Part shown: positions 12,338 to 33,740 of the stretch, one piece after another
How positions within the stretch are numbered: the stretch's first letter is position 1
Layout: every line of letters starts with the position of its first letter
Assembly (NCBI GenBank): GCA_022539475.1
Contig: VCMS01000422.1
Span: forward strand, 1-35,246
DNA from: Gracilaria domingensis
Taxonomy: Eukaryota > Rhodophyta > Florideophyceae > Gracilariales > Gracilariaceae
Length of the DNA stretch: 35,246 nucleotides
Direction of reading: 5' to 3'
Notes under the pieces: model-generated
What the model was told of the DNA's origin: nothing
Databases searched by the model: none
The model's input: only the letters and a program-made list of their open reading frames with translations
Made by a program: the position numbers and the translations under genes

Positions 12338-13116
12338 TGATGGAGGTTATAGCTGGAAAGGGAAGGTTGGGAGAAAGGATGGGGGGAATGAAGGGAAGTT
12401 CGCCAGCTCTAGCTCGGAATTTACTTGGAGGTGCTCGAGTCACCGCTTATATAGGACTACTTTGCGCAACCATCGCACAAGTCCAACTCCAAGCAATACC
12501 TAAACCACTAGCTAGAGACACTCAATACTACCAATCATCTCCTAACATAACATCGTAACACTCCCACACTATCATGGCAGCTTACAACAACAAAGCAAAA
12601 CAGTGCACAACAGTGCACAATAATTTACGTGCCTACACATAACCATGACCATGCACAGATTCACATAGTGCCAACACACTGTAATCCGTACACGCCACCA
12701 TACCAGTTACGTACAAGCTCACCAACTAACACGTCACCACAAACTCACTCCAAGTCCTACGTAACCAACAATACCACAGTGTAAACCTCTTGACAGCGCA
12801 TCTACTCTTCACAATAATGCCAAAGTCACATGAAGCTGTCCTACATGTCCACGTACATACGTGTGTACCCTGTGCATCATGTACAGCATGCCCAGTGTAT
12901 TAGCTACACACGTGTACCCTGGAAACAACCCATTAGCGCCACAACACTTGTACGAACCACAATGCATATGACCATTTGCAGTAGCCAATCAGAAGCCCGT
13001 TTCACGTTGAGTTTGCGCAGAGGCGCATGTGCGCTTTTCCAACGGCACCCTCCAAAACAGCCCATGCTCCCCAGCACTTTTGGTTCTCAGTGACAGCACA
13101 GGGTCAACATCCAACA
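12338..13116 (-). mobile_element. 3' LTR of element B, chimeric
   Basis: Minus-strand TGTTGGATG (13116) to CCTCCATCA (12338), 779 bp. The U3 start (about 12687-13116) matches B's own 5' LTR (18492-19277), for example GCGCATGTGCGC in place of the palindrome and AACACGTCACC. The U5-proximal part (12338 to about 12662) instead matches the 3' LTR of A, for example CACAATAATTTACG and the GGTTGGGAGAAAGGATGG terminus. So this LTR is recombinant, and the C gag flank came with the A half. Confidence 0.88.
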
Positions 13117-13127
13117 CCCCCCCTCTG
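13117..13127 (-). other. Polypurine tract of element B
   Basis: Minus-strand CAGAGGGGGGG immediately before the 3' LTR. Confidence 0.87.
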
Positions 13128-13136
13128 TCACTGACT

Positions 13137-15206
13137 TCAAAATTCTATGTGGATTACACCACCGGCTTCGCGGAACTTCTCGTGCTTCACTCGGGCAAGC
13201 GGCTTATTCAGCATATCGGCAACCATGGAATCCGTCGGGCAGTAGAACAGCACAATCGACTTGGCCTGCAGAGCTTCTCGAGTGAAGTGGAACCGAATGT
13301 CAATGTGCTTGGTTCGCCTGGTCACCACTCCATTACGAGCAAGGTCAATGCTGCCCTGGTTGTCAACATACATGGGAGTTGGTTCAACCAGCAGCTTCAC
13401 AGATCCCTCTGCTTCCATGCCAATCACACTGCCAATGCCGTTCCAAAGTCGCCTAAGCCAGATCGCCTCCTTGGTGCCAGAGCACAAGCTCACGTACTCA
13501 GCCTCCGCACTGGACAGAGCCACTACCTCCTGCTGACGAGAAGACCACGACACAGCACCACCGCACATCATGAACAAGTATCCACTAGTGGACTTGCGGT
13601 TGGCAACATCACCCGCCCAGTCGGAGTCCACATACCCGTGCAGTTGCAAATCAGTGCTGGAGCCATACGTCAACCCGAACGTGGTAGTGCCATTGAGGTA
13701 GCGAAGAACACGCTTGACCGCCTTCCAGTGAGTGTTGCCCGGCTTCTCAACATACTTGGCCAGCTTAGCCACAGCATATGAGATGTATGGACGAGTTCCC
13801 ACAGACAGATACATGAGGCAGCCAATCGCCTGACGATACGGTACATGTGTGAGCACTTCCTCCTCAACAGACAAGTACACACCGCACTCCATAGGAGTGT
13901 CAACGGGTTTCGACAGCTGCATGCCAAATCGCTCCAGGACCTTGTTCGTGTACGCTGACTGAGTCAAGTACAGCTCTCGCTTGGTTCTGTCTCGATGGAT
14001 TTCAAATCCAAGAACCATGCGAGCTTCTTTGAGGTCCTTCATGCGGAAACGACTTGACAGCTCTGCCTTCACACGTTCCACGGTTTTCATGCTCGGACTC
14101 GCAATCAGCAAGTCATCTACATACAGAGCAATGATAACCAAGAAACCCAGTATGATGCCGGTGTAGACACACTCGTCTGCGTCATTCGGCTTGAGGTGCA
14201 TTTCACCAACAAGGAAGGCGTATATCTTGGCGTGCCACTGTCTTGGTGCTTGTCTAAGCCCATAGATTGCTTTCTTCAATCGGCACACCAAGTCCTCCTT
14301 TCCCTGCTGTGTGAACCCCATTGGCTGCTCCATGTACACTGTCTCGTCAAGGTCACCGTTCAGAAACGCAGTCTTCACGTCCATCTGGTGCAAGTGAAAG
14401 TCTCGTACGGCAGTCACTGACAGGATCATTCTGATGGATGTGAACTTCACCACAGGTGCATATGTCTCTGAGAAGTCCACACCCTCGATCTGCAGGAAGC
14501 CTCTTGCAACCACACGAGCCTTGTAACGCACGGTCGGTTCACCAGATGACGAAGCCTCATACTTCTGTACATACACCCACTTGGACGAAATCACGTTGCT
14601 GTCTGCTGGCCTTGGCACTAGATCCCATGTGTCATGCTCCATCAATGACTCGTACTCACTCTTCATCGCCTTCTTCCAAGCTTCGGAATCAGGACGTGAC
14701 ACTGCGTCACCGTACGACGAAGGAGTATCATCACTGGCTGTAAGGAAAGCACTGGCACCACGCCACCACGAGGATGGCGTCTTTCTCTGACGTGTGGATC
14801 TACGAAGGGGCTGCGTCTCTGTCACTTCCGGCTCATCTTGTGGAACTGGTGTGGTGTGTTCATCCGTACTGGCATTCGTGGTACTCTCATGAGAAGCTGG
14901 TGCAGAAGGGTCATCTTCAGAATGATCGGCGGATGTGTCGGAGGTTGAGGCTTCAGCAGATCCCGACTTGTCAACCAAGTCGATATCCGCATAGTCCTCG
15001 TCTTCAGAGTGCTCGTCACTTTCAGTTCCAGAGCACTCGTCAAACCTCACATCTCGTGACACAATCACCTTCTTCTTCTGGCTGTCCCACAACTTGTACC
15101 CGTGGGAGCCTGAAGTGTACCCAATGAAGATGCACTCCACTGCACGCTCTTCCAGCTTCTTCAACTTGTGATCAACCACCTTGTACCAGCAACGGCTACC
15201 AAACAC
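13137..15206 (-). CDS. pol: Copia pol: integrase C-terminus, reverse transcriptase, RNase H (element B)
   Basis: 689 codons, the best preserved pol in the window. The integrase C-terminal domain is followed by an acidic Ser/Thr-rich linker (about 58-165). The RT core runs from about 175 to 440, with Asp276 in QMDVKTAFLNG and YVDD at 362-365. The connection and RNase H run from about 455 to 640, with VDSDWAGD at 526-533, SSAEAEY at 565-571, YVDNQ near 613 and RTKHIDIRFHF at 631-641. All polymerase and RNase H acidic residues I expect are present. The Met at 15206 is simply the first after the TGA at 15240, so this was originally continuous with the integrase frame. It terminates with TGA at 13137-13139. 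Confidence 0.93.
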   Translation of the reverse strand: MFGSRCWYKVVDHKLKKLEERAVECIFIGYTSGSHGYKLWDSQKKKVIVSRDVRFDECSGTESDEHSEDEDYADIDLVDKSGSAEASTSDTSADHSEDDPSAPASHESTTNASTDEHTTPVPQDEPEVTETQPLRRSTRQRKTPSSWWRGASAFLTASDDTPSSYGDAVSRPDSEAWKKAMKSEYESLMEHDTWDLVPRPADSNVISSKWVYVQKYEASSSGEPTVRYKARVVARGFLQIEGVDFSETYAPVVKFTSIRMILSVTAVRDFHLHQMDVKTAFLNGDLDETVYMEQPMGFTQQGKEDLVCRLKKAIYGLRQAPRQWHAKIYAFLVGEMHLKPNDADECVYTGIILGFLVIIALYVDDLLIASPSMKTVERVKAELSSRFRMKDLKEARMVLGFEIHRDRTKRELYLTQSAYTNKVLERFGMQLSKPVDTPMECGVYLSVEEEVLTHVPYRQAIGCLMYLSVGTRPYISYAVAKLAKYVEKPGNTHWKAVKRVLRYLNGTTTFGLTYGSSTDLQLHGYVDSDWAGDVANRKSTSGYLFMMCGGAVSWSSRQQEVVALSSAEAEYVSLCSGTKEAIWLRRLWNGIGSVIGMEAEGSVKLLVEPTPMYVDNQGSIDLARNGVVTRRTKHIDIRFHFTREALQAKSIVLFYCPTDSMVADMLNKPLARVKHEKFREAGGVIHIEF

Positions 15207-15239
15207 ACGCAGATTGCTCAGATCAGGCTTCTGTCCATG

Positions 15240-15763
15240 TCACAGCTCAAACGGCGTCACGTCACTCGGAAGCGCTTTGCAGGTCACTCTGTTGCGCACA
15301 TACACAGAGACATTCAGAGCCTCAGCCCAAAAGCTTTTTGGCACATTCTTGTGATGCAACATTGACCTGACCAAGTCCATGAGTGTGCGGTTGAACCTCT
15401 CGGCAAGCCCGTTCTGCTGTGGATTATAAGGCACAGTTCGCTGATGCTCAATACCGTACTGCTCAAGCTTTTCGGAGAACCGATTGGACAAGTACTCACC
15501 ACCATTGTCAGTGCGTAATGCACGCAACACACTCTTGCGAGCGGTGATGGTTAACACTTTCCTTCCCATCTGGTTCTCCACAAACCTGAGCCACTTGATG
15601 AACATCCGGAACACCTCATCCTTCGTCTTGAGCATGTACAAGAAGCAGTAGCGGCTGTGGTCATCGATGAATGTGACAAAGTAGTGCGAGCCTCCCAAGG
15701 ACTTCACGTTCACTGGACCCGATATATCAGAGTGTACCAGGTCCAGTACGTGTTCAGCTCGTT
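15240..15763 (-). CDS. Copia integrase catalytic core (element B)
   Basis: The reading frame shows the integrase core: LDLVHSDISGPV, FVTFIDDHSRY, RTDNGGEYLS and NGLAERFNRTLMD contain the D,D-35-E-type residues. The ORF is open from 16049, but only the part from about 15763 down is authentic; upstream residues are the wrong frame of the preceding region. The frame break is a run of six G (15764-15769), where the homologous fragment at about 32939-32945 has seven and stays in frame. The ORF ends at TGA in place of the conserved Trp of the ELWHG motif. Confidence 0.88.
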
Positions 15764-17170
15764 CCCCCCTTGCTTGGGAGTCGGAGCACGGGTTGCTTTG
15801 CCCACTACACAAGAGCCGCACACATCCAGCTTCTGAGCCACATCCACATTCAGACCTGACACAACACCATTTCGAGCCATCTGCTTGATGCCTTCCACAT
15901 TCACATGAGCCATTCGAGCATGCCAAAGAGACAAGTCTGACACAAGGGCACTGTCCGTAGCCGTGAACTGATCTGCAGCAGTGCAAAGGTAGTACAGGTC
16001 TTTGACGCGGCGCCCAACGGCAACCACTTTTGACCCCTTGTACACACATACCTTTTCTTTGTCAAACACTACCGTGCAGTTCAAATCACAAATCTGCGAC
16101 ACTGACAACAGGTGGTACCGCAAGTTAGGCACGTGCACCACTTGCTTCAGCTTGCACTTACGCTTGGACCCTTCAACTGTCAGATCGAGCTCCACACTTC
16201 CGTGACCAACAGACTGCAACTTGGAATCATTGCCGATACTCACACCCGACGACACCTTTGTCTCGTACGTTTTGAACATTGAGTCATCATAAGTCATGTG
16301 CGCAGTAGCTCCAGAGTCAACAATCCAGTCACTGTTAGTGGCCTTGTCGGCACTATTCGCAATGAGGCATACAAAGTCAGAATCGCTGCCTCCCGTACCT
16401 TGCTCATCGTTGAGCGCGGTATGTACACTTGGGTGAGCAGCATCGATCTGATCCTTGTTAGCCCCATCACGTTGCGTTTTGAAACAGTTCTTCTGGATAT
16501 GACCTTTTATGCCACAATAGTAACACACAACCGACTTCAATGACTTCCTACGAAACTGGCGTCCCACGAGTGCAGCATCACCACCGGACTCCTCCTTGGC
16601 ACGATCACTCATACGTTGCTCTTCTTGCAATAGACGGCTCTTCACAAACTCCATAGTGAGTTGGCGATCTCCGATCGTGGTGTCAATTGCAACAATGAGG
16701 TGCTCAAAACGATCCGGAAGTCCACATAGAGCAGCCATAGCAATGTCCTCTTCTTTAACGTTGACGTCCATACTCTTGAGGTCGGAGGCCAAGTGCCGAA
16801 CACGATTGATGAATTGCAACATCTTCTCGTCCTCGCGCATTTTGACAGAGTAGAAGGCACGTCTGGCGTTGATTCGGTTAAGAAGAGTCCTACGTTGAAA
16901 CACATTGCAAATGGCCTTCCATGCGTCAGCAGCAGTCTCGATGTCTCGAATGTGATCCAGGTGCTCGTCGGCAAGCGTGAGTGCAATGATAGCTCTGGCC
17001 CTTTCGTCCCGGATTTGCCACTTTGCCAGTTCCTCTTCATCCGTGGGTGCAGAAGTGGTGAGATGGTTCTTGAGGTCTTTCAGTGCAAGTAAATACTGAA
17101 TCTTCTGCTTCCAAGTATGGAAGTTATCCTCACCCAACTTCTCGATCTTGAGCCCACTAAACGAGTCCAT
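15764..17170 (-). CDS. gag: Copia gag, protease and integrase zinc-binding domain (element B)
   Basis: From the Met at 17170 (MDSFSGLKIEKLGEDNFHTW, a canonical copia gag start) ~469 authentic residues follow. The gag core spans about 10-190, with a CCHC knuckle CYYCGIKGHIQKNC at 216-229. The aspartic protease has DSGA at 285-288 and ends near HVPNLRYHLLSVSQI. The pre-integrase HHCC domain has His417, His422, Cys451 and Cys454. The ORF is open up to 17407, but the extra 79 codons come from a low-complexity GTT-rich repeat, so 17170 is the preferred start. A 1-base loss in a G run ends the frame at about 15764, leaving a short false tail to the stop at 15710. If that is a base-calling error, gag-pol is interrupted only by the TGA at 15240. 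Confidence 0.9.
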
Positions 17171-17227
17171 GATGTAAGAGAGGAACTGCAGCGAACCAGA
17201 TAATGCGGTGGCAGACAGGCAATAGCA

Positions 17228-17385
17228 AACGACAGCGGTAAACAACAACAGCAAACAACAACAACAAACAACAACAAACAACAATAACAACAAACAACAA
17301 CAACAAACAACAACAAACAACAATAACAACAAACAACAACAACAAACAACAACAAACAACAATAACAACAAACAACAACAACAAT
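17228..17385 (-). repeat. 39-bp AAC-rich minisatellite in the 5' UTR of element B
   Basis: About four tandem copies of a 39-bp unit built from CAA/CAAA steps with one CAATAACAA per unit; GTT/TTG-rich in element sense. It ends about 58 bases upstream of the gag ATG. The period is a multiple of three and all three minus-strand frames are open across it. The frame in line with gag would encode a CCCCLLLLLFVVV repeat. Confidence 0.9.
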
Positions 17386-17410
17386 AAAGATGAATAGTCG
17401 GGTGCAAAAG

Positions 17411-17591
17411 GAACTAAGATTCCTGGTACCCTAGGGAGTCGGACCCCTGACCCCCGGAGACTCTCCGGGTAAGAAACGACTTCTGCAGTCTACCTCCTCC
17501 TGCGTTCTAGAAGAAGGTGCGTCGCTCTCTACGAGACTTCCAGAGGAGAGTTAATGACCGAAGATATGCCTTCACCAAGTAAAACCCTCTC
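17411..17591 (-). ncRNA. Structured leader module of element B
   Basis: Homologous to 25014-25190 of D. On the minus strand it shows the CTTCTA..CAGGAG stem (weaker than in D), CCCGGAG-AGT-CTCCGGG (loop differs from D), the AGGG..CCCT stem, CCCTAGGG and AGGAA-TCTTAG-TTCCT. It lies 240 bases upstream of the gag ATG, beyond the minisatellite. Confidence 0.55.
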
Positions 17592-18476
17592 TGGTCTCTT
17601 GCAAGAACTTGCGCGACCCTGAAACTGCAGGTACTATGACAAACCGAGGTACGCTTCTAGCAAGCAAACAATGAAGTTCACAAGCGGCCTGATCCTAAAA
17701 AGGAGGTCAGCCTACCACACGTCGCCTCCCCGCACCACCGAAGCAGTACGGATCAAAAGCTCGTTTCAGTTTGCCTTCGCCACAGATCAAGAACCCAACA
17801 CAAAGTCAGGTCAGCAACAATAAAGGTGGACCACCTCCTGTCCAGTGCAGTACGTCACGGCACCCCGTCCACAAATGCCCCCGCGAAGAATACCAGGTCT
17901 TTCGACCGACACCGTTATCTGCCCCTAAGGACCGGTGGGAAACTCGCAAGACGGAACAAATGCTTTGGTTCAAGCCGCCAGACTAACGTCCCCGATTGCT
18001 CGGATCAACCGCTCGTCGCACCGAAACTCAAGTGATCACCACACCTGCCGAGCACACACGCAGTGCACGGACTTCAACAGAAACGAATGCTGAGCACAAC
18101 ACACAAGTGCACAGACTTCAACAACACAAGGTCCTCAACCTCTCGGATCAGAACCCACAAAGACGACGTGGGGATCCCAACAATAATAACAGAGGAATTC
18201 CAAACGACGCGTATAGCGATCGACAACACGGGCAACAACGAGCGCCCAAACACAATCACGATAGAAAGTCAACGTCGAACCACCACCAACAAAACGCCCT
18301 CAGGGAGGAACGAACGACAGAAAGAAGAAATTCAACACCGACCAACGATACTGTCAACACACACGACGCAACGGAGAAGGGAACGAAAGGGAAAACAGCG
18401 AAGCGGATGAACGGCGGTGAGGGAGAGCGGCGAGAATCAGCGGCGAGAGGGAACGATAACGGCAGAGGTCAGCGGG
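17592..18476 (-). other. 5' leader of element B
   Basis: Non-coding leader between PBS and structured module, ~85% similar by eye to the D leader (24113-25013) and to the leader starting at 34902. ORFs of 60-175 codons occur on both strands but have low-complexity composition, are not conserved in frame and show no domain. I treat them as chance. Confidence 0.7.
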
Positions 18477-18491
18477 GCTGGGCCCATAACC
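18477..18491 (-). other. Primer-binding site of element B
   Basis: Minus-strand GGTTATGGGCCCAGC directly abuts the LTR end (...CTCTATCA). It is complementary to 15 nt of the initiator tRNA-Met anticodon arm (GCUGGGCCCAUAACC), implying a half-tRNA primer. Confidence 0.88.
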
Positions 18492-19277
18492 TGATAGAGG
18501 TTGAAGCTGAAAGGGAAGGTTGAAGAAAGGATAGGGGAATGAAGGGAAGTTCGCCAGCTCTGGCTCGGAGTTTACTTGGAGGCGCTCGAGTCACCGCTTA
18601 TATAGAACTACTTTGCGCAATCATCGCACAACTCCATCTCCAAGCAATACCTAAACCACTAGCTAGAGACACTCAATACTACCAATCATCTTCTAACATA
18701 ACATGGTAACACTGCCACACTATCATGACAGCTTACAACAACAAAGCACAACAACGCACAACAGTGCACAACCGTGCACATCAAGTTACGTGCCTACACA
18801 TAACCATGACCATGCACAGATTAACATAGTGCCAACACACTGTAATCCGTACACGCCACCATACCAGTTACGTACAAGCTCACCAACTAACACGTCACCA
18901 CAAACTCACTCCAAGTCCTACGTAACCAACAATACCACAGTGTAAACCTCTTGACAGCGCATCTACTCTTCACCATAATGCCAAAGTCACATGAAGCTGT
19001 CCTAAATGTCCACGTACATACGTGTGTACCCTGTGCATCATGTACAGCATGCCCAGTGTATTAGCTACACACGTGTACCCTGGAAACAACCCATTAGCGC
19101 CACAACACTTGTACGAACCACAATGCATATGACCATTTGCAGTAGCCAATCAGAAGCCCGTTTCACGTTGAGTTTGCGCAGAGGCGCATGTGCGCTTTTC
19201 CAACGGCACCCTCCAAAACAGCCCATGCTCCCCAGCACTTTTGGTTCTCAGTGACAGCACAGGGTCAACATCCAACA
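18492..19277 (-). mobile_element. 5' LTR of element B
   Basis: 786 bp, TGTTGGATG (19277) to CTCTATCA (18492) on the minus strand. TATATAAG (minus) lies at about 18598-18605. It is inserted in an RT gene fragment on the same strand (next feature). The 5-mer upstream (GTATC in element sense) is not repeated after the 3' LTR (CCTTG), as expected if the 3' flank was exchanged. Confidence 0.9.
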
Positions 19278-20910: not shown

Positions 20911-21900
20911 TGTTAGAGGTTATAGCTGGGATCAGAAAGTTGACATGAGGAAGGATGGGGGGATGCAAGGAAAGTTCGCCAGCTCTAGCTCAGATTTATT
21001 TGGAGGTGCTTGAGTCACAACTTATATAGCACTTCTTCGCTACTCCATCATGCGATTCCAACTCTGACCAACATGCAACTCACTAACCAGAGACACTCAA
21101 TACTACCAATCATCTACCGACATAACATGGTAACAGTGTCAAACTGCTTACAACAGCAGTGCACAACAACGCACAACAGTGTACAAGAGTGCACAACAAT
21201 TCCGTACACTACTGCACAGCAGTGCACAACAATGCACAACAATGTAGTAGCCATACACGTCCCTGACAGTGTACCGACACATTTCGACAGCACACCGCGA
21301 GCACCACACATCAATGCAGTCAACAATATGACAGCAGACCATAGCAACGCGACCATGCATACACACAATGCAACACCTCACCATTATGACCAGACATGCT
21401 TACGGAACATGACACAACACTTCACGTGTTGCTTGCACGCTGTAATCCTGTACGGATGTACACGACACCGTAATGTATACGTGCCAGACACCCAAGTCCC
21501 ACATCATCAACAAGTACCTGTAAACCAGATGACCAGTCACTCAGCTGCAACATGTTCCATTCATCCATACACACACATGTGCATGTAGCACAACCCAGAC
21601 ATGATGTACACTTCACAACACTGACAGTGCTGCAACCTGTACCATGCGTTCACATACATGGCCTTGCAACCTGTACTCCATGACCACTGTGCAACCTGTC
21701 ATCGTTGTACCTTGTGGTCATCCTAGCTGAACGACAGCATTCCATTGTAGACATAAAGGTTCAACCCATACTGAGTATACCACATAGCAACGTAGTATAC
21801 CAAACAGAACAATATCAATCTCGGTTTCATATATCAAGGTGCCATTCTACACTCCACACATCTCAACTGCTTGATGTCAGTGACAGCATGACTTCCAACA
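20911..21900 (-). mobile_element. D-family LTR (3' LTR of D0)
   Basis: 990 bp; minus-strand TGTTGGAAG at 21900 to CCTCTAACA at 20911. The polypurine tract just beyond identifies it as the 3' LTR of a minus-strand D element. It contains a long array of GTGCACAACA-type decamers (about 21160-21245) and a TATA box CTATATAAG (minus, near 21023). Confidence 0.87.
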
Positions 21901-21911
21901 CCCTCTCTCTG
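21901..21911 (-). other. Polypurine tract of D0
   Basis: Minus-strand CAGAGAGAGGG adjoining the LTR start. Confidence 0.78.
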
Positions 21912-23104
21912 TTACTGACTTCAAGCGACCAGCGCTCCTGGCCAAGTACATGCTAAGTAACAAGTCGGGCAGTCAAGAAACCAACGTTACTGCACTTAAA
22001 ACTTACGATGGCCAGCGGTGACAACCAAACATCAAGTGCAGTTAGCGTGTGTCCAAGTCCACGGCTGTACCGTTCTACCAGTATACCAAGATCATAGTTC
22101 TGTTCTGTACGATTCGGATGTTCTGCAAACACCCTCCTTTCGTCACACACTCTGAACTTCTCACTCATCCTTCGTATGGCAACGAAGGCAACAGCTTCTG
22201 GTTCAAACAGATATCAACAACAGACAGTGAGAGCCTAAGTCTGAGTATGTTACTCTGACACCCTCCCTCTCTCACTGGCTTTGAACTTCTCTCGGAACCA
22301 AAATGCACCTCAGAGTCCTTCACAAAAGGGATCTAGACGTTCACAAGTGACCACATTTTAGACACCGAAAACAAATGTTGCTTCGAGCATGTAACACATA
22401 ACAACCTCTCGGAGCACCACTAATCACATTACTTCAACCAGACATGCAAACACACGCAACCTTCTGGTTCAAGACCGATTTTCTTAACACCGGGCATGCA
22501 ACAAGTAGCAACCTTCCAATTCAACATCACCTTCGTAACAGCTGGACATGCAAAAGAGAGCAACCTTCCAGCTCAACAAATCTCTTCAAAGAGCGGACAT
22601 ACAAAATCACAGCAACCTTCCGCGAATAACACACAAAGAGAATTGCAACACAGGCATCCTGGACTTTCAAAATGACAACCTTCCAGGCCCCGTCCCTACA
22701 AAGTGATGTCCTACACACTCAGGCATGAAACACTCAACCTCCTGAGTCAATTAGCTCTTTCATTCACACCGGACATGCAAACACATAGCAAACTTCCAGT
22801 GACAACAAACTGAAACAAAGAGCAAAACAAACATCACAAGCAATGAAACAAACACTCAGGCATGAAACACTCAACCTCCTGAATCGAACAGCTCTTCCAT
22901 AACCCAGACATGCATACATGTAACAACCTTCTGGAAACATGAGAACAACATGGAGAGCAAAACACACATCACAAGTGATCAATAATACACTCAGGCATGA
23001 AACACTCAGCCTCCTGAGTCAAACAGCTCTTCCATACACACCGGACATGCAACCAAATAGCAACCTTCCGGTACAACATAAGTAAAGCGAAGAGCACAGC
23101 ACAC
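21912..23104 (-). mobile_element. 3' internal region of D0 including hairpin array
   Basis: Reverse-complement homologue of about 25430-26621 of D1, more diverged. The hairpin array covers about 22329-23085; AGCTGGA/TCCAGCT, GCGGA/TCCGC and GCTTCGAG/CTCGGAGC stems are all visible. No coding capacity: the longest ORFs (60-70 codons) lack domains. It is cut at 23105 by D1 in the opposite orientation, so the D0 leader, PBS and 5' LTR are missing. Confidence 0.8.
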
Positions 23105-24097
23105 TGTTGGAAGTCATGCTGTCACTGACATCAAGCAGTTGAGATGTGTGGAGTCTAGAATGGTACCTTGATACGTGAAACCGAGATTGATGTTGTTCTG
23201 TTTGGTATTCTACGTTGCTGTGTGGTATACTCAGTATGGGTTGAACGTTTATGGCTACACTGGAACGCTATCGTTCAGCTGGGATGACCACAAGGTACAA
23301 CGATGACAGGTTGTACAGTGGTCATGAAGTACAGGGTTGAAGGCTATGTATGTGCACACAAGGTACAGGTGGCAGCACTGTCAGTGTTGTGAAGTTTACA
23401 CCATGTTTGAGTTGTGCTACATGCAAATGTGTGTGTATGGATGAATGGAACATGTTGCAGCTAAGTGACTGACGTCATGTGGTTTACAGGTACTTGTTGA
23501 TGATGTGGGACTTGGGTATCTGGCACGTACACTCTACGGTGTGGTATACAGATTACAGCGTGCCAGCAACACGTGAAGTGTGATGTGATGTTCCGTAAGC
23601 ATGGCTGGTCATGATGGTGAGGTGTTGCATTGTGTGTATGCATGGTCGTGTTACTATGGTGAGCTGTCATATTGTTGACTGCGTTGATGTGTGGTGCTCG
23701 TGGTGTGCTGTAGAAATGTGTCGGTACACTGTCAGGGACGTGCATGGCTACTACATTGGTGTGCATTGTTGTGCATTGTTGTGCACTGCTGTGCAGTAGT
23801 GTACTGAATTGTTGTGCACTGTTGTACACTGTTGTGCGTTGTTGTGCACTGCTGTTGTAAGCAGTTTGGCACTGTTACCATGTTATGTCTGTAGATGATT
23901 GGTAGTATTGAGTGTCTCTGGTTAGTGAGTTGCATGTTGGTCAGAGTTGGAGTCCCATGATGGAGTAGCGAAGAAGTGCTATATAGGTTGTGACTCAAGC
24001 ACCTCCAAGTAAATCTGAGCCAGAGCTGGCGAACTTCCCTTGCATCCCCCCATCCTTCCTCATGTCAACTTTCTGATCCCAGCTATAACCTCTAACA
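23105..24097 (+). mobile_element. 5' LTR of non-autonomous element D1
   Basis: 993 bp, TGTTGGAAG...CCTCTAACA. It is unlike B in U3 but homologous to B from the ATTGGTAGTATTGAGTGTCTC block through U5. It carries a TATA box (TATATA, 23980-23985) and about nine TTGTGCACTG-like decamers (about 23757-23860). Minus-strand ORFs rich in Thr/His/Asn here are products of that repeat, not genes. Confidence 0.9.
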
Positions 24098-24112
24098 GGT
24101 TATGGGCCCAGC
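24098..24112 (+). other. Primer-binding site of D1
   Basis: GGTTATGGGCCCAGC directly after the LTR; same initiator tRNA-Met half-tRNA complement as in B. Confidence 0.88.
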
Positions 24113-25013
24113 CCCGCTGACCTCTGCCGTTTGTCGTTCCTCATGAGGTTTCCCTTTCCGCCGCTCTCCCTCACCGCCGTCCGTGTTGTTGAACGCCGTT
24201 GTTGATGTTTTCGATGTTTTTTCTCCGTCGTGTTTCTTGTCATTGACCGGTTTGGTGGTGTTGTATTTCCCTTTTGGTTTGCGTTCCTCCCTGAGGGCGT
24301 TCTGGTGGTAGTGGCTCGACGCTGTTCTACTTTCGTGATTCTGTTTGGTTTCTAGTTCATTTTCGTTTTCGTCGATCGCTATCCGCTTTGTTGGTTTCTC
24401 GCCTCTGTTTTCGTTGTTGTGATCCCCGTGTCGTGTTTGCGGGTTCTGATCCGAGGGGTTGAGTACCGTTGTCGTTGAAGTCTGTGCACTTGTGTGTTGT
24501 GCTCAGCATTCGTTTTTTCGTTGAAGTCCGGGCACTGCCTGTGTGCTCGGCATTTGTGGTGATCACTTGGGTTTCGGTGCGACGAGCGGTTGATCCGAGC
24601 AATCGGGGACGTTAGTCTGGCGGCTTGAACCAATTCGGACGCACTGTCGAGCGGGCTCCCACCGGTCCTTCGGGGCAGATAACGGTGTCGGTCGGAAGAC
24701 CTGGTAGTACCGCGAGGGCTGAAGTTGACGGGGTGCCGTGACGTACTGCATCGAACAGGGGTGGTTCACCTTTGTTGTGTGTGACCTGACTGTGTGTTGG
24801 GTTCTTGATCTGTTGGGAAGACAAACTGAAACGAGCTTTTGATCCGTACTGCTGCGGTGCTGCGGGGAGGCGACGTGTCGTAGGCTGACCTCCTTTTCAG
24901 GATCAGGCCGCTTGTGAACTTGATTGTTTGCTTGCTGGAAGCGTACCTCGGTTTGTCATAGTACCTGCAGTATCAGGGTCGCGCAAGTTCTTGCAAGAGA
25001 CCAGAGAGGGTTT
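24113..25013 (+). other. 5' leader of D1
   Basis: Homologous to the B leader (17592-18476 reverse complemented) from CCGCTGACCTCTGCCG onward. No gag start and no conserved ORF. Shared leader sequence is the main reason to call D a derivative of B. Confidence 0.75.
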
Positions 25014-25190
25014 AACTTGGTGAAGGCATATCTTTGGTCACTAACCATCCTCTGGACGTCTCGTAGAGAGCGACGCGCTTTCTCCTGGAACGCAGGAGGA
25101 GGTAGACAGAAGAAAGTCGTTTCCTACCCGGAGGGTCTCCGGGGGTCAGGGGTCCGACTCCCTAGGGTACCAGGAATCTTAGTTCCTTAT
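25014..25190 (+). ncRNA. Structured leader module, D-type
   Basis: Stems visible in order: CTCCTG-GAACG-CAGGAG (25082-25098), CCCGGAG-GGT-CTCCGGG (25127-25143), AGGG/CCCT (25148-25151 with 25160-25163) and AGGAA-TCTTAG-TTCCT (25172-25187). Equivalent C stems are GCTCTG/CAGAGC, CCTGG/CCAGG, AGAGGT/ACCTCT and GGAT/ATCC: different bases, same layout. Also contains self-complementary CCCTAGGG and GGTACC. Confidence 0.58.
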
Positions 25191-25234
25191 GCACCCGATC
25201 GCTTGCAGTTTGTTGTTGTTATTCTCGCTACAGT

Positions 25235-26201
25235 TCAGGAGGTGGAGTGTTTCCTGCCTGAGACTGTGTGTGTGAGATTCGTTTATGACACTTCCTGGGT
25301 GTTTATTGTTGAACATGTCTGAGCTCTTCTTTGTATCAACTTTGGAAAGTTGAGATGTTACTTGTCCGTTGTTATCGTGACTTCCTTACGCAGGCTCAGA
25401 AGGTTGTCGTTATGTATGCCCGGGATGTGTGCTGTGCTCTTCGCTTTACTTCTGTTGTACCGGAAGGTTGCTATTTGGTTGCATGTCCGGTGTGTATGGA
25501 AGAGCTGTTTGACTCAGGAGGTTGAGTGTTTCATGCCTGAGTGTATTATTGATCACTTGTGATGTGTGTTTTGCTCTCCATGTTGTTTTCATGTTACCGG
25601 GAGGTTGCTACTTGTATGTATGTCCGGTGTATGGAAGAGCTGTTTTGATTCAGGAGGTTGAGTGTTTCATGCCTGAGTGTTTGTTTCATCGCTTGTGATG
25701 TTTCTCTTTGCTCTTTGTTTCAATTTGTTGCCACTGGAAGATTGCTATGTGTCTGCATGTCCGGTGTGAATGAAAGAGCTGTTTGACTCAGGAGTTTAAG
25801 TGTTTCATGCCTGAGTGTGTAGGACATCACTTTGTATGGACGGGGCCTGGAAGGTTGTCATTTTGCAAGTCCAGGATGCCTGTGTTGCAATTCTCTTTGT
25901 GTGTTATTCGCGGAAGGTTGCTGTGATTTTGAATGTCCGCTGTTTGAAGAGATTTGTTGAGCTGGAAGGTTGCTCTCTTTTGCATGTCCAGCTGCTACGA
26001 AGGTGATGTTGAACTGGAAGGTTGCTACTTGTTGCATGTCCGGTGTTCAGAAAATCGGTCTTGAATCAGAAGGTTGCGTGTGTTTGCATGTCTGGTTGAA
26101 GTACTGTGATTAATGGTGCTCCGAGAGGTTGTTATGTGTTACATGCTCGGAGCAACATTTGTTTTCGGTGTCTAGAATGTGGTCAGTTGTGGACGTCTAG
26201 A
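25235..26201 (+). repeat. Array of covarying hairpins in D1 (noncoding)
   Basis: At least twelve hairpins share a loop-side consensus, roughly GGAAGGTTGC-(N9-12)-GCATGTCC, inside stems of different sequence. Stems: ACCGGA/TCCGGT (25459, 25486), ACTCAGG/CCTGAGT (25512, 25536), ACCGG/CCGGT (25596, 25624), CACTGGA/TCCGGTG (25732, 25760), ACTCAGG/CCTGAGT (25786, 25810), CCTGGA/TCCAGG (25846, 25870), GCGGA/TCCGC (25910, 25936), AGCTGGA/TCCAGCT (25960, 25987), ACTGGA/TCCGGT (26013, 26039), an 11-bp arm pair (26060, 26091), GCTCCGAG/CTCGGAGC (26118, 26146) and TCTAGA/TCTAGA (26171, 26196). The first six form three dimers with a ~137-bp period; later ones are ~50-60 bp apart. It occupies the place where gag-pol would lie. 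Confidence 0.82.
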
Positions 26202-26621
26202 TCCCTTTTGTGAAGGACTCTGAGGTGCATTTTGGTTCCGAGAGAAGTTCAAAGCCAGTGAGAGAGGGAGAGTGTCAGAGTAACATCCTCAGACTTAGGC
26301 TCTCACTGTCTGTTGTTGATATCTGTTTGAACCGGAAGCTGTTGTCTTCGTTGCCATACGAAGGATGAGTAAGAAGTTCAGAGTGTGTGACAAAAGGAGG
26401 GTGTTTCCAGAACATCCGAATCGTACAGAACAGAACTATGATCTTGGTGTACTGGTAGAACGGTACAGCCGTGGGCTTGGACACACACTAACTGCACTTG
26501 ATGTTTGGTTGTCACCGTTGGCCATCGTAAGGTTTATTTGCAGTAACATTGGTTTCTTGACTGCCCGACTTGTTACTTAGCATGTACTTGACCAGGAGCG
26601 CTGGTTGCTTGAAGTCAGTAA
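26202..26621 (+). other. 3' internal region of D1
   Basis: Contains an upstream purine tract followed by TG (GAGAGAGGGAGAG then TGTCAGAG, near 26262-26276), resembling a second polypurine tract/LTR-start boundary, then ~345 bases to the real tract. An ORF on the plus strand (26365-26580, 71 codons) and one on the minus strand (26275-26484) recur in other D copies but show no known domain. No convincing gene. Confidence 0.6.
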
Positions 26622-26632
26622 CAGAGGGAGGG
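26622..26632 (+). other. Polypurine tract of D1
   Basis: CAGAGGGAGGG directly before the LTR at 26633. Confidence 0.82.
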
Positions 26633-27625
26633 TGTTGGAAGTCATGCTGTCACTGACATCAAGCAGTTGAGATGTGTGGAGTCTAGAATGGTACCTTGAT
26701 ACGTGAAACCGAGATTGATGTTGTTCTGTTTGGTATACTACGTTGCTGTGTGGTATACTCAGTATGGGTTGAACGTTTATGGCTACACTGGAACGCTATC
26801 GTTCAGCTGGGATGACCACAAGGTACAACGATGACAGGTTGTACAGTGGTCATGAAGTACAGGGTTGAAGGCTATGTATGTGCACACAAGGTACAGGTGG
26901 CAGCACTGTCAGTGTTGTGAAGTTTACACCATGTTTGAGTTGTGCTACATGCAAATGTGTGTGTATGGATGAATGGAACATGTTGCAGCTAAGTGACTGA
27001 CGTCATGTGGTTTACAGGTACTTGTTGATGATGTGGGACTTGGGTATCTGGCACGTACACTCTACGGTGTGGTGTACAGATTACAGCGTGCCAGCAACAC
27101 GTGAAGTGTGATGTGATGTTCCGTAAGCATGGCTGGTCATGATGGTGAGGTGTTGCATTGTGTGTATGCATGGTCGTGTTACTATGGTGAGCTGTCATAT
27201 TGTTGACTGCGTTGATGTGTGGTGCTCGTGGTGTGCTGTAGAAATGTGTCGGTACACTGTCAGGGACGTGCATGGCTACTACATTGGTGTGCATTGTTGT
27301 GCATTGTTGTGCACTGCTGTGCAGTAGTGTACTGAATTGTTGTGCACTGTTGTACACTGTTGTGCGTTGTTGTGCACTGCTGTTGTAAGCAGTTTGGCAC
27401 TGTTACCATGTTATGTCTGTAGATGATTGGTAGTATTGAGTGTCTCTGGTTAGTGAGTTGCATGTTGGTCAGAGTTGGAGTCCCATGATGGAGTAGCGAA
27501 GAAGTGCTATATAGGTTGTGACTCAAGCACCTCCAAGTAAATCTGAGCCAGAGCTGGCGAACTTCCCTTGCATCCCCCCATCCTTCCTCATGTCAACTTT
27601 CTGATCCCAGCTATAACCTCTAACA
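26633..27625 (+). mobile_element. D LTR shared by D1 (3') and D2 (5')
   Basis: 993 bp, nearly identical to 23105-24097 and 29768-30760. It closes D1 and opens D2, giving an LTR-internal-LTR-internal-LTR array. No PBS follows it. Confidence 0.9.
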
Positions 27626-29767
27626 TGTGTTGTGCTCAGCATTCGTTTTTTCGTTGAAGTCCGGGCACTGCCTGTGTGCTCGGCATTTGTGGTGATCACT
27701 TGGGTTTCGGTGCGACGAGCGGTTGATCCGAGCAATCGGGGACGTTAGTCTGGCGGCTTGAACCAATTCGGACGCGCTGTCGAGCGGGCTCCCACCGGTC
27801 CTTCGGGGCAGATAACGGTGTCGGTCGGAAGACCTGGTAGTACCGCCAGTGCTGAAGTTGACGGGGTGCCGTGACGTACTGCATCGAACAGGGGTGGTTC
27901 ACCTTTGTTGTGTGTGACCTGACTGTGTGTTGGGTTCTTGATCTGTTGGGAAGACAAACTGAAACGAGCTTTTGATCCGTACTGCTGCGGTGGTGCGGGG
28001 AGGCGACGTGTCGTAGGCTGACCTCCTTTTCAGGATCAGGCCGCTTGTGAACTTGATTGTTTGCTTGCTGGAAGCGTACCTCGGTTTGTCATAGTACCTG
28101 CAGTATCAAGGTCGCGCAAGTTCTTGCAAGAGACCAGAGAGGGTTTAACTTGGTGAAGGCATATCTTTGGTCACTAACCATCCTCTGGACGTCTCGTAGA
28201 GAACGACGCGCCTTCTCCTGGAACGCAGGAGGAGGTAGACAGAAGAAAGTCGTTTCCTACCCGGAGGGTCTCCGGGGGTCAGGGGTCCGACTCCCTAGGG
28301 TACCAGGAATCTTAGTTCCTTATGCACCCGATCGCTTGCAGTTTGTTGTTGTTATGCTGGCTACAGTTCAGGAGGTGGAGTGTTTCCTGCCTGAGACTGT
28401 GTGTGTGAGATTCGTTTATGACACTTCCTGGGTGTTTGTTGTTGAACATGTCTGAGCTCTTCTTTGTATCAACTTTGGAAAGTTGCGATGTTACTTGTCC
28501 GTTGTTATCGTGACTTCCTTACGCAGGCTCAGAAGGTTGTCGTTATGTATGCCCGGGATGTGTGCTGTGCTCTTCGCTTTACTTCTGTTGTACCGGAAGG
28601 TTGCTATTTGTCTGCATGTCCGGTGTGTACGGAAGAGCTGTTTGACTCAGGAGGTTGAGTGTTTCATGCCTGAGTGTACTATTGATCACTTGTGATGTGT
28701 GTTTTGCTCTCCATGTTGTTTTCATGTTACCGGGAGGTTGCTACTTGTATGTATGTCCGGTGTATGGAAGAGCTGTTTTGATTCAGGAGGTTGAGTGTTT
28801 CATGCCTGAGTGTTTGTTTCATCGCTTGTGATGTTTCTCTTTGCTCTTTGTTTCAATTTGTTGCCACTGGAAGATTGCTATGTGTCTGCATGTCCGGTGT
28901 GAATGAAAGAGCTGTTTGACTCAGCAGTTTAAGTGTTTCATGCCTGAGTGTGTAGGACATCACTTTGTATGGACGGGGCCTGGAAGGTTGTCATTTTGCA
29001 AGTCCAGGATGCCTGTGTTGCAATTCTCTTTGTGTGTTATTCGCGGAAGGTTGCCGTGATTTTGCATGTCCGCTGTTTGAAGAGATTTGTTGAGCTGGAA
29101 GGTTGCTCTCTTTTGCATGTCCAGCTGTTACGAAGGTGATGTTGAACTGGAAGGTTGCTACTTGTTGCATGTCCGGTGTTCAGAAAATCGGTCTTGAATC
29201 AGAAGGTTGCGTGTGTTTGCATGTCTGGTTGAAGTACTGTGATTAATGGTGCTCCGAGAGGTTGTTATGTGTTACATGCTCGGAGCAACATTCGTTTTTC
29301 GGTGTCTAGAATGTGGTCAGTTGTGGACGTCTAGATCCCTTTTGTGAAGGACTCTGAGGTGCATTTTGGTTCCGAGAGAAGTTCAAAGCCAGTGAGAGAG
29401 GGAGGGTGTCAGAGTAACATCCTCAGACTTAGGCTCTCACTGTCTGTTGTTGATATCTGTTTGACCCCGGAAGCTGTTGTCTTCGTTGCCATACGAAGGA
29501 TGAGTAAGAAGTTCAGAGTGTGTGACAAAAGAAGGGTGTTTCCAGAACATCCGAATCGTACAGAACAGAACTATGATCTTGGTATACCGGTAGAACGGTA
29601 CAGCCGTGGGCTTGGACACACACTAACTGCACTTGATGTTTGGTTGTCACCGTTGGCCATCGTAAGGTTTATTTGCAGTAACATTGGTTTCTTGACTGCC
29701 CGACTTGTTACTTAGCATGTACTTGACCAGGAGCGCTGGTTGCTTGAAGTCAGTAACAGAGGGAGGG
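27626..29767 (+). mobile_element. Internal region of D2 (lacks PBS and proximal leader)
   Basis: Begins TGTGTTGTGCTCAGC, equivalent to D1 position 24493, so 395 bp including the PBS are missing. It then follows D1 with few changes: structured module at about 28147-28323, hairpin array 28368-29335, polypurine tract 29757-29767. An ORF at 29344-29715 (123 codons) is longer than in D1 because of a small insertion and has no recognisable domain. Without a PBS, D2 could not start reverse transcription from its own RNA. Confidence 0.85.
28368..29335 (+). repeat. Hairpin array of D2
   Basis: Same cassette order as 25235-26201, shifted by ~3133 bp, with substitutions mostly outside stems. One stem is weakened (ACTCAGC in place of ACTCAGG near 28919). 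Confidence 0.8.
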
Positions 29768-30760
29768 TGTTGGAAGTCATGCTGTCACTGACATCAAGCA
29801 GTTGAGATGTGTGGAGTCTAGAATGGTACCTTGATACGTGAAACCGAGATTGATGTTGTTCTGTTTGGTATACTACGTTGCTGTGTGGTATACTCAGTAT
29901 GGGTTGAACGTTTATGGCTACACTGGAACGCTATCGTTCAGCTGGGATGACCACAAGGTACAACGATGACAGGTTGTACAGTGGTCATGAAGTACAGGGT
30001 TGAAGGCTATGTATGTGCACACAAGGTACAGGTGGCAGCACTGTCAGTGTTGTGAAGTTTACACCATGTTTGAGTTGTGCTACATGCAAATGTGTGTGTA
30101 TGGATGAATGGAACATGTTGCAGCTAAGTGACTGACGTCATGTGGTTTACAGGTACTTGTTGATGATGTGGGACTTGGGTATCTGGCACGTACACTCTAC
30201 GGTGTGGTGTACAGATTACAGCGTGCCAGCAACACGTGAAGTGTGATGTGATGTTCCGTAAGCATGGCTGGTCATGATGGTGAGGTGTTGCATTGTGTGT
30301 ATGCATGGTCGTGTTACTATGGTGAGCTGTCATATTGTTGACTGCGTTGATGTGTGGTGCTCGTGGTGTGCTGTAGAAATGTGTCGGTACACTGTCAGGG
30401 ACGTGCATGGCTACTACATTGGTGTGCATTGTTGTGCATTGTTGTGCACTGCTGTGCAGTAGTGTACTGAATTGTTGTGCACTGTTGTACACTGTTGTGC
30501 GTTGTTGTGCACTGCTGTTGTAAGCAGTTTGGCACTGTTACCATGTTATGTCTGTAGATGATTGGTAGTATTGAGTGTCTCTGGTTAGTGAGTTGCATGT
30601 TGGTCAGAGTTGGAGTCCCATGATGGAGTAGCGAAGAAGTGCTATATAGGTTGTGACTCAAGCACCTCCAAGTAAATCTGAGCCAGAGCTGGCGAACTTC
30701 CCTTGCATCCCCCCATCCTTCCTCATGTCAACTTTCTGATCCCAGCTATAACCTCTAACA
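29768..30760 (+). mobile_element. 3' LTR of D2
   Basis: 993 bp, TGTTGGAAG...CCTCTAACA, TATA box near 30643. It abuts the inverted internal region of element E at 30761. Confidence 0.9.
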
Positions 30761-32080
30761 CACACATCCCGGGCATACATAACGACAACCTTCTGAGCCT
30801 GCGTAAGGAAGTCACGATAACAACGGACAAGTAACATCGCAACTTTCCAAAGTTGATACAAAGAAGAGCTCAGACATGTTCAACAACAAACACCCAGGAA
30901 GTGGCATAAACGAATCTCTCACACACAGTCTCAGGCAGGAAACACTCCACCTCCTGAACTGTAGCGAGCATAACAACAACGAACTGCAAGCGATCGGGTG
31001 CATAAGGAACTAAGATTCCTGGTACCCTAGGGAGTCGGACCCCTGACCCCCGGAGACCCTCCGGGTAGGAAACGACTTTCTTCTGTCTACCTCCTCCTGC
31101 GTTCCAGGAGAAGGCGCGTCGCTCTCTACGAGACGTCCAGAGGATGGTTAGTGACCAAAGATATGCCTTCACCAAGTTAAACCCTCTCTGGTCTCTTGCA
31201 AGAACTTGCGCGACCCTGATACTGCAGGTACTATGACAAACCGAGGTACGCTTCCAGCAAGCAAACAATCAAGTTCACAAGCGGCCTGATCCTGAAAAGG
31301 AGGTCAGCCTACGACACGTCGCCTCCCCGCACCACCGCAGCATTACGGATCAAAAGCTCGTTTCAGTTTGTCTTCCCAACAGATCAAGAACCCAACACAC
31401 AGTCAGGTCATACACAAAAAAGGTGAACCACCCCTGTTCGATGCAGTACGTCACGGCACCCCGTCAACTTCAGCACTCGCGGTACTACCAGGTCTTCCGA
31501 CCGACACCGTTATCTGCCCCGAAGGACCGATGGGAGCCCGCTCGACAGCGCTTCCGCATTGGTTCAAGCCGCAAGACTAACGTCCCCGATTGCTCGGATC
31601 AACCGCTCGTCGCACCGAAACTCAAGTGATCACCACAAATGCCGAGCACACAGGCAGTTCCCGGACTTCAACGAAAAAACGAATGCTGAGCACAACACAC
31701 AAGTGTACAGACTTCAACGACAACGGTACTCAACCCCTCGGATCAGAACCCGCAAACACGACACGGGGATCACAACAACGAAAACAGAGGCGAGAAACCA
31801 ACAACAGCGGATAGCGATCGACGAAAACGAAAATGAACGAGAAACCAAGCAGAATCACGAAAGTAGAACAACGTCGAACCACTACCACCACAACGCCCTC
31901 AGGGAGGAACGCAAACCAAAAGGGAAATACAACACCACCAAACCAGTCAACGAAAAGAAACACGACGGCAAACAACCATCGAAAACATCAACAACGGCGT
32001 TCAACAACACGGTCGGCGGTGAGGGAGAGCGGCGGAAAGGGAAACCTCAAGACGAACGACAAACGGCAGAGGTCAGCAGG
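30761..32080 (-). mobile_element. Element E: D-type leader and start of hairpin array
   Basis: Reverse complement of D1 from the leader start to about 25434. The first hairpins are at about 30765-30962, the structured module at about 31010-31185, then leader to the PBS. The rest of the element is replaced by D2. ORFs on either strand (up to 180 codons at 31559-32101) are leader sequence, low complexity, without domains. Confidence 0.82.
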
Positions 32081-32095
32081 GCTGGGCCCATAACC
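32081..32095 (-). other. Primer-binding site of element E
   Basis: Minus-strand GGTTATGGGCCCAGC adjoining the LTR end. Confidence 0.87.
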
Positions 32096-32876
32096 TGTTA
32101 GAGGTTATAGCTGGGATCGGAAAGTTGACATGAGGAAGGATGGGGGGATGCAAGGGAAGTTCGCCAGCTCTAGCTCGGAATTTACTTGGAGGTGCTCGAG
32201 TCACCGCTTATATAGAACTACTTTGCGCAACCATCGCACAACTCTAACTCCAAGCAATACCTTAACCTCTAGCTAGAGACACTCAATACTACCAATCATC
32301 TTCTAACATGACATGGTAACACTCCCACACTATCATGGCAGCTTACAACAACAAAGCACAACAGTGCACAACAGTGCACAACAAGTTACGTGCCTACACA
32401 TAACCATGACCATGCACAGATTCACATAGTGCCAACACACTGTAATCTCTACACGACACCATAACAGTTACGTACGAGCTCACCAACAGCAACTCACCAC
32501 AAACTCACTTCAAGTCCTACGTCACTAACAACACCACACTGTAATCCTCTTGACACCGCATCAACTCTTCACCATAGTGCCCAAGTTACACCAAGCTGTC
32601 CTACATGTCCCCGTACATACGTGTGTACCCTGTGCATCATGTACAGTATGCCCAGTGTACTAGCTACACACGTGTACCCCGGAAACAACCCATTAGCGCC
32701 ACAACACTTGTACGAACCACAATGCATATGACCATTTGCAGTAGCCAATCAGAAGCCCATTTCACGTTCACTTTGCGCAGAGGCGCATATGCGCTTTTCC
32801 AACGGCACCCTCCAAAACAACCCATGCTCCCCAGCACTTTTGGTTTTCAGTGACAGCACAGGGTCAACATCCAACA
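32096..32876 (-). mobile_element. Chimeric 5' LTR of E: B-type U3, D-type U5
   Basis: 781 bp. The outer U3, palindrome and TATATAAG (minus, 32207-32214) are B-type. The last ~65-90 bp (32096 to about 32160-32190), ending CCGATCCCAGCTATAACCTC then TAACA, are D-type, including the CATGTCAACTTTC block absent from B LTRs. The switch falls just downstream of the TATA box, where R is expected. Confidence 0.85.
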
Positions 32877-33740
32877 CTTCACGTTCACTGGACCCGATAT
32901 ATCAGAGTGTACCAGGTCCAGTACGTGTTCAGCTCGTTCCCCCCCTTGCTTGGGAGCCGGAGCACGGGTTGCTTTGCCCACTACACAAGAGCCGCACACA
33001 TCTAGCTTCTGAGCCACATCCACATTCAGACCTGACACAACACCGTTTCGAGCCATCTGCTTGATGCCTTCCACATTCACATGAGCCATTCGAGCATGCC
33101 AAAGAGACAAGTCTGACACAAGCGCACTGTCCGTGTCCGTGAACTGATCTGCAGCAGTGCAAAGGTAGTACAGGTCTTTGACACGGCGCCCAACGGCAAC
33201 CACTTTTGACCCCTTGTACACACATACCTTTTCTTTGTCAAACACTACCGTGCAGCCCAGATCACAAATCTGTGACACAGACAACAAATGGTACCGTAAG
33301 TTGGGCACGTGTACCACCTGCTTTAGCTTGCACTTACGCTTGGACCCTTCAACTGTCAGATCGAGCTCCACACTTCCGTGACCAACAGACTGCAACTTGG
33401 AATCATTGCCGATACTCACACCCGACGACACCTTTGTCTCGTACGTTTGGAACATTGAGTCATCATAAGTCATGTGCGCAGTAGCTCCAGAGTCAACAAT
33501 CCAGTCACTGTTAGTGGCCTTGTCGGCACCATTCGCAATGAGGCATACAAAGTCAGAATCGCTGCCGCCCGTACCTTGCTCATCGTTGAGCGCGGTATGT
33601 ACACTTGGGTGAGCAGCATCGATCTGATCCTTGTTGGCTCCATCACGTTGCTTTTTGAAACAGTTCTTCTGGATATGACCCTTTATGCCACAATAGTAAC
33701 ACACAACCGACTTCAATGACTTCCTACGAAACTGGCGTGC
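32877..33740 (-). pseudogene. Copia gag-protease-integrase fragment (B family)
   Basis: One continuous frame inside ORF 32847-33926: RQFRRKSLKSVV, CCHC knuckle CYYCGIKGHIQKNC, protease DSGATAHMT, the HHCC region LWHARMAH ... CGSC, and LVHSDISGPVNVK. It has seven G where element B has six (about 32939-32945), so it preserves the frame B has lost. Both ends are cut: at 32877 by the E LTR start and at 33740 by a C LTR start. Residues outside these limits are LTR-derived. Confidence 0.9.

Follow-up and report, generated by a model that had tools for sequence, protein, structure and literature searches.

What does an array of hairpins do in the place where a retrotransposon should carry gag-pol? 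The question is raised by D, an LTR element in a 35,246-nucleotide stretch of Gracilaria domingensis DNA (contig VCMS01000422.1 of assembly GCA_022539475.1, hereafter the window). Gene-free LTR elements are common and the function of their interiors is mostly obscure; the interior of D offers a repeated RNA motif that can be tested. The genome shows 14 phycobilisome-linker domain matches, four of them on one 179,836-base contig, and the linker protein encoded there shares 96% identity with its counterparts in Gracilaria textorii and G. multipartita, which marks the host as a Gracilaria-like red alga. The copy D1 occupies 23105-27625 (4521 bp, with an interior of 2535 bp) and belongs to the Copia-type LTR elements but has no gag-pol. 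Its 5′ LTR (23105-24097, 993 bp, on the plus strand like all features of D1 and D2 given below) has TGTT...AACA ends and is immediately preceded by a CACAC copy of the target site. The PBS (24098-24125) was called by sequence: its complement reads ...CTGGGCCCATAACC, an end that we take to be the anticodon arm of a putative initiator tRNA-Met, and half-tRNA priming, as in Drosophila copia, is the model for its use. The 12-mer GGGCCCATAACC from the PBS occurs 261 times in the genome, versus once for its backward control. The 5′ leader (24098-25223) is 83.9% identical to a copia leader in the window (17377-18523, minus strand) and is followed by the hairpin array (25232-26153), with 13 well-formed units designated H1 and H4-H15, and by a 3′ region (26203-26632) that bears no likeness to copia gag/pol and ends in the PPT, the purine run AACAGAGGGAGGG common to D1 and copia. 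No copia protein match was found in the D1 interior below E 0.07 (best match E 0.075) and the longest stop-free frame has 135 codons, which agrees with the initial annotation of a retrotransposon devoid of gag-pol and, there being no long frame, rules out the array as coding sequence. Because its leader is this close to that of copia and its interior is without gag/pol likeness, D is, as judged from sequence, the gene-free descendant of a Copia-type element.

The LTR that closes D1 (26633-27625) is at the same time the 5′ LTR of a second copy, D2, whose interior (27626-29767) has no counterpart of 24098-24492, so that the first 395 bases, the PBS among them, are missing; the D2 array lies at 28365-29286 and the last LTR at 29768-30760. 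The last and middle LTRs are identical, and the first differs from each of them by 2 mismatches. Examination of the D1-D2 composite for a target-site duplication found CACAC just before 23105 and just after 30760, flanking the composite as a whole, so a single duplication encloses two D interiors and three LTRs (23105-30760), and D1-D2 may have inserted as a composite. It sits inside the array of a third copy, D0, which is split on the minus strand into a portion left of the insertion (22380-23104) and the rest to its right (30761-30960). The ends of D0 differ, with a D-type LTR at the 3′ end and a copia-type LTR at the 5′ end (20911-21903 and 32095-32877); from these unlike LTRs it looks as if D0 were a recombined element. 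Within the D LTR, a 10-base repeat, CATTGTTGTG, recurs about nine times (23754-23858 and copies), and copia LTRs carry shorter ones.

Among 51 loci, some of which are one place fetched twice, 27 different 15-mers follow the 3′ LTR, counting two that are continuations of D itself and two that differ by one base; such distinct flanks suggest that D moves. Possible helpers for D may be sought among the pol matches free of internal stops, which make up 43 of the 65 listed (the best 65 of 1036 candidates were scored).

The motif was derived by reading 15 candidate units in register. Each unit consists of an outer stem of 5-9 bp, AGGT, an inner stem of 3 bp, an apical loop of 5-9 nt, the returning inner stem, TG and the returning outer stem. 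The array stands where the initial annotation had placed it, and its count of about twelve hairpins gives way to 13 well-formed units plus two decayed ones, of which only cores are left (H2x, 25347-25364, and H3, 25401-25418, both on the plus strand). Composite units of 137 nt, each joining one long-loop and one short-loop hairpin, are present in 2.6 copies at 25458-25818. All six stem pairs quoted earlier are present in the sequence, the outer stems including ACCGGA/TCCGGT, ACTCAGG/CCTGAGT, AGCTGGA/TCCAGCT and GCTCCGAG/CTCGGAGC. The proposed constant loop, GGAAGGTTGC...GCATGTCC, did not hold: its GGA/TCC belongs to the outer stem, where other units have AGG/CCT, AGA/TCT or GAG/CTC instead, and its TGC/GCA belongs to the inner stem, which can also be TGA/TCA, GGA/TCC or TGT/ACA. 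The constant element is an asymmetric internal loop in which AGGT faces TG, flanked by outer and inner helices that both vary. The consensus letter is kept in 133, 128, 113 and 131 of 135 distinct unit variants for AGGT and in 130 and 128 for TG, so this unpaired element persists while adjoining positions change. Among copies, H6 (25595-25629) shows two stem alleles, ACCGGG/TCCGGT and ACCAGA/TCTGGG or TCCTGGT, which perhaps arose by conversion between units. The copy number of the array varies as well, with one composite unit more in L034-L036 and apparently in L037 and one fewer in L039; the array of L041 has a larger gap.

A covariance model built from the 13 units gave 42 matches in the window (E<=1, filters off), all within the D0, D1 and D2 arrays; of the two decayed units, H3 was recovered (E 0.032) and H2x was without a match at E<=1. 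The array thus recurs in D0 and D2 as originally noted, and its supposed partial presence in element E was not borne out: E has no match at E<=1 and shares with D only the sequence from 26273 onward. The copia elements of the window likewise gave no match at E<=1, nor did any leader in the window, which rules out the array as an amplified leader hairpin. A search of Rfam, advised at the outset, returned nothing in the window at gathering scores and nothing in 24090-26640 at E<=5, and the array as a known RNA family was discarded on this absence. Across the 77.9-Mb genome (680 contigs), the pattern AGGTTGCN(5-10)GCATGTCC occurs 169 times and its backward control not once. A DNA similarity search with the array produced 44 matches, which fall at 40 distinct places because four arrays were hit twice; as the best 40 of 62 candidates were scored, there are at least 40 such places, and the exact motif pattern adds array places beyond these. 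Genome-wide detection rests on exact patterns and DNA similarity, by which more diverged arrays would be missed, and the pattern places followed up do not include C221:26922.

One locus, L080 (C167:27000-28700), was considered as an independent host gene and is read instead as the remnant of an old D copy interrupted by other repeats. It holds the array equivalent to 25610-26202 at 89% identity without the D flanks, as a fragment (490-1076 of L080) between two other repeats. The left flank is a repeat found at least about 40 times among the matches scored, and is probably an LTR end, because in the window it also precedes a PBS-like stretch (3504-3986). The right flank is another repeat that begins one base past the array, and in two sampled copies of it (L083 and L084) the upstream sequence contains nothing from the window. 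An inverted repeat at 1320-1430 of L080 (about GGCTTCCCATGTGGTCCGTTGGTGGACCAC and its complement) belongs to another repeat family of the genome.

Folding of the individual units gave negative z values for all 13 hairpins (-0.47 to -3.77, 200 shuffles each), which bears out the expectation that the stems are more stable than shuffled sequence; H1, H6 and H11 are weak, with 20, 21 and 62 of 200 shuffles, respectively, folding as well. Prediction for the whole array recovered most of the hairpins and a further helix, GCTCT.../...AGAGC, around H6 and H8. The initial annotation left folded RNA and cruciform DNA side by side. If the sense RNA folds, G.T mispairs on the plus strand should be tolerated and A.C mispairs should not, and in the inferred ancestor G.T mispairs number 6 and A.C mispairs 0. 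Over all variants, G.T stands at 35 slot positions and A.C at 24; the split is 23 versus 21 on terminal branches and 13 versus 7 on shared branches, or 6 versus 6 on the latter without H6. The whole-array fold is the stronger on the minus strand (z -5.59, versus -2.28 on the plus strand, where 2 of 20 shuffles reached the same stability), and we infer that the weaker plus-strand value comes from its G/T-richness, through which its shuffles fold well too. Taken from mispair counts of this kind, sense RNA appears modestly favoured over cruciform DNA.

In the 13-unit alignment, 89.5% of the 143 stem cells pair, versus 70.6% with the 3′ letters redealt (0 of 500 as high), and pairing drops to 26-44% when the partner is slid by 1-3 columns. 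Nine of the 11 pairs vary on both sides among the 13 window units, with 36 such cells versus 14.7 in shuffles. For a phylogeny-aware null, 558 instances without gaps in the stem flanks (13 slots in 46 copies, 135 distinct) were tabulated, changes were reconstructed by parsimony and each column's changes were redrawn over the branches, a test of our own and not R-scape. Summed covariation over the 11 pairs was 464.8, which none of 300 replicates reached on either the all-column tree (null mean 2.6, maximum 179.6) or the non-stem-column tree (mean 6.6, maximum 241.6). On these two trees, 7 and 6 of the 11 single pairs fell at p<0.05, and concerted changes on one branch numbered 11 versus 4.9 expected and 56 versus 20.3 expected. 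Among all 528 column pairs, not one passed E<0.05; a structural pair, 4-34, ranked first (E 1.7), and structural pairs made up 6 of the 11 highest-ranking ones. The hairpin fold is therefore supported and covariation is supported for the structure as a whole, the independent units being too few to certify single pairs. The earlier suggestion of paired change beyond mere duplication is upheld at that level, and its proposed covariation check succeeds for the whole structure and fails for any single pair among the 528.

Substitution rates were counted over 46 of 48 aligned rows, L041 and L073 being set aside; like the covariation tests, they cover one Gracilaria genome. With all branches pooled, stems changed at 0.592 per site and linkers at 0.636, indicating no constraint on stems. 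The division into shared branches (two or more copies) and terminal branches was made after this pooled count, since copies once inserted should be free to decay. On shared branches the outer stems took 26 changes over 174 sites (0.149) and AGGT/TG 11 over 78 (0.141), versus 135 over 547 in linkers (0.247), 25 over 94 in apical loops (0.266) and 123 over 430 in the 3′ region (0.286); on terminal branches the outer stems ran at 0.443 and linkers at 0.389. By Fisher's test on shared branches, outer stems differ from linkers at p 0.007, outer stems plus AGGT/TG from linkers plus apical loops at p 0.001 and AGGT/TG alone at p 0.05, and the inner helix (15 over 78, 0.192) shows no slowdown relative to linkers (p 0.79). 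H6 supplies 16 of the 26 outer-stem changes; its exclusion, chosen after seeing the data, leaves 10 of 160 versus 130 of 501 in linkers (p 5e-6), and restriction to clades of at least 4 copies gives p 0.09 when H6 is kept and 3e-5 when it is dropped. Pairs were kept in 23 of 41 changes on shared branches, versus a neutral expectation of 32% (p 0.001; 8e-5 with another root), an excess that stems from H6 (20 events), since pairing was preserved in 7 of the remaining 21. The rates were much the same with L032 as root. The pattern of the outer stems fits selection while the element is mobile and decay after insertion. With covariation of the structure as a whole, and with a slowdown of the outer stems that is confined to shared branches, the proposal of selection for a folded nucleic acid gains support.

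Rates in 39 copies were 0.194 on shared versus 0.372 on terminal branches for the array as a whole, and 0.041 versus 0.256 for the second half of the leader (24701-25231), the strongest constraint in the element. A leader stretch (24990-25200 in D; 17395-17620, minus strand, in copia; 4130-4345 in a third family, F) contains long invariant blocks in all three, together with stem-like parts changing in both arms, in leaders that otherwise differ. From its sequence, it is perhaps a real packaging or priming structure.

These rates bear on two explanations that dispense with selection for a function. Template switching in DNA replication, a described process (PMC8794818), makes or repairs inverted repeats and could generate paired changes in stems that are near-perfect inverted repeats. 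It should act on terminal branches too, however, where stems keep pace with linkers and the number of mismatches is close to expectation (57 of 93, versus 69% under neutrality; p 0.06 for an excess of pair-keeping), and it would neither conserve an unpaired AGGT/TG nor leave 6 G.T versus 0 A.C in the inferred ancestor, so that we give it little credence. Slightly better placed, and still improbable, is neutral filler, in which a single palindrome was duplicated in tandem and recombination keeps its copies alike: the 137-nt composite units expand and contract, H6 switches between two stem alleles and stems are not slower when all branches are pooled. Duplication, however, yields no paired differences between units, and the outer stems are slow on shared branches.

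We tentatively propose, at somewhat below even chances, that D is a LARD-like element whose array acts in sense RNA as a multivalent docking platform for an RNA-binding protein. D keeps the cis-acting parts, namely LTRs, PBS, leader and PPT, and the array of about 13 hairpins stands in the place of gag-pol. Each hairpin would present AGGU opposite UG, held by helices that are free in sequence as long as they pair, and each internal loop would bind one putative RNA-binding protein molecule. This docking-site reading follows from the look of the unit, since a conserved unpaired internal loop between sequence-free helices is what a scaffolded protein- or RNA-binding site looks like, and the repetition of the hairpin suggests binding of many molecules. 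The candidate partner would be the Gag or nucleocapsid of a helper element, or a host factor for RNA export or stability; such a row of sites could enable the gene-free RNA to vie for helper particles, or to enter the cytoplasm and last there. That D is transcribed and bound, by which partner and for which step, is what we infer. Packaging signals of such elements usually lie in the leader, and because D keeps the copia leader, the array would add a function that the parent did not need, or of which D needs more; Gag competition, nuclear export and protection of an untranslated RNA are candidates. Against docking through Gag, the hairpin model has no match in the copia elements of the window, though a Gag site might be expected there, and the constrained leader alone could carry packaging. 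With a little less assurance still, we suggest that D swapped all coding for a selected multivalent RNA scaffold, in which 13 copies of a new AGGU/UG hairpin motif would recruit a helper or host protein, so that D would live off an autonomous Copia family as a structured non-coding RNA.

More specific versions of this proposal fare less well. The array could be an amplified, psi-like Gag-binding site by which D outcompetes its autonomous parent for virus-like particles. Being gene-free, D must use a helper, many of the pol copies listed are open, and for TRIMs the authors of one account assume, in the portion drawn on here, that a possible packaging signal is kept as secondary structure (PMC4558846). 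The hairpin is nonetheless missing from the window copia elements at E<=1, and the leader, common to D and copia, is under tighter constraint than the array and may itself hold packaging; we consider an amplified Gag site unlikely. To a similar degree we doubt that the loops recruit a host factor so that an ORF-less RNA exits the nucleus and escapes degradation, as the loops of the MPMV CTE recruit NXF1. This analogy would draw on a shared layout, in which one and the same internal loop is repeated between helices (PMC4377836, as far as the excerpted description goes) and on one genome match above cut-off to the TAP_C domain of such receptors (27.4 bits), yet that is a single weak domain match, the loop size differs and the hairpins of D are many and separate, where the CTE forms one long stem. 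Least probable, and remote in our estimate, is a role in RNA silencing, with the hairpins supplying the host machinery with small RNAs or engaging it as decoys. Four Piwi-domain matches are present in the genome, and oppositely oriented D copies form inverted repeats of up to 1293 nt in the window. The units of 33-37 nt with stems of 5-9 bp are, however, too short for usual Dicer substrates, and a silencing role would need no conserved internal loop.

On the docking-platform reading, the D array, with its defined internal loop, covarying helices and a selection signature confined to the mobile lineage, could serve as bait for its binding partner and would reveal cis-acting RNA needs beyond the leader.

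Among known systems, the autonomous relative nearest at hand is copia A (12338-18523), which has in common with D the leader, the PPT, the LTR ends and the PBS sequence; it has gag-pol (13137-17407, minus strand) and no hairpin array, whereas D has the array and no gag-pol. The start of the copia gag frame (17241-17384) carries a 13/39-base AAC-rich repeat. The MPMV CTE, likened to D by layout alone, is likewise a retroelement RNA in which the same internal loop recurs between helices. In the sections of its description compared, its two 16-nt internal loops, which recruit NXF1, lie in one stem (PMC4377836), whereas D has 13 separate hairpins with AGGU/UG. LARDs and TRIMs are presented, in the parts of the two sources used here, as gene-free LTR elements with conserved RNA structures and an assumed dependence on helpers (PMC7215508, PMC4558846), so that gene-free LTR elements as such are a known class. 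The TRIMs, such as Cassandra and Ta-TRIM, share with D the gene-free LTR organisation, and the portion of one source used here attributes tandem arrays and predicted conserved folds to Cassandra (PMC7215508). TRIMs are, however, shorter than 4 kb with almost no interior, whereas that of D1 measures 2535 bp, and the Cassandra fold lies in the LTRs, in 5S rRNA-like sequence, whereas the fold of D is an interior array. Closer to D are the LARDs (Sukkula, Dasheng), alike in LTRs, PBS, PPT, a long gene-free interior and a presumed dependence on a helper. LARDs exceed 4 kb according to the text consulted of PMC4558846, and D1, at 4521 bp, has TG...CA LTR ends with a target-site duplication, PBS and PPT and no gag-pol. 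D thus appears LARD-like, agreeing in all features tested, and its flanks together with the open pol copies suggest mobilisation in trans. LARDs are known from plants and D comes from a red alga, and the portions of the LARD descriptions compared contain no hairpin array with covarying stems. A search of the open-access literature, with subscription journals outside its scope, found no description of such an interior, in line with what the initial annotation had held for this part of the architecture. Gene-free LTR elements are thus already represented by LARDs and TRIMs, and what appears new in D is an interior built as a hairpin array.
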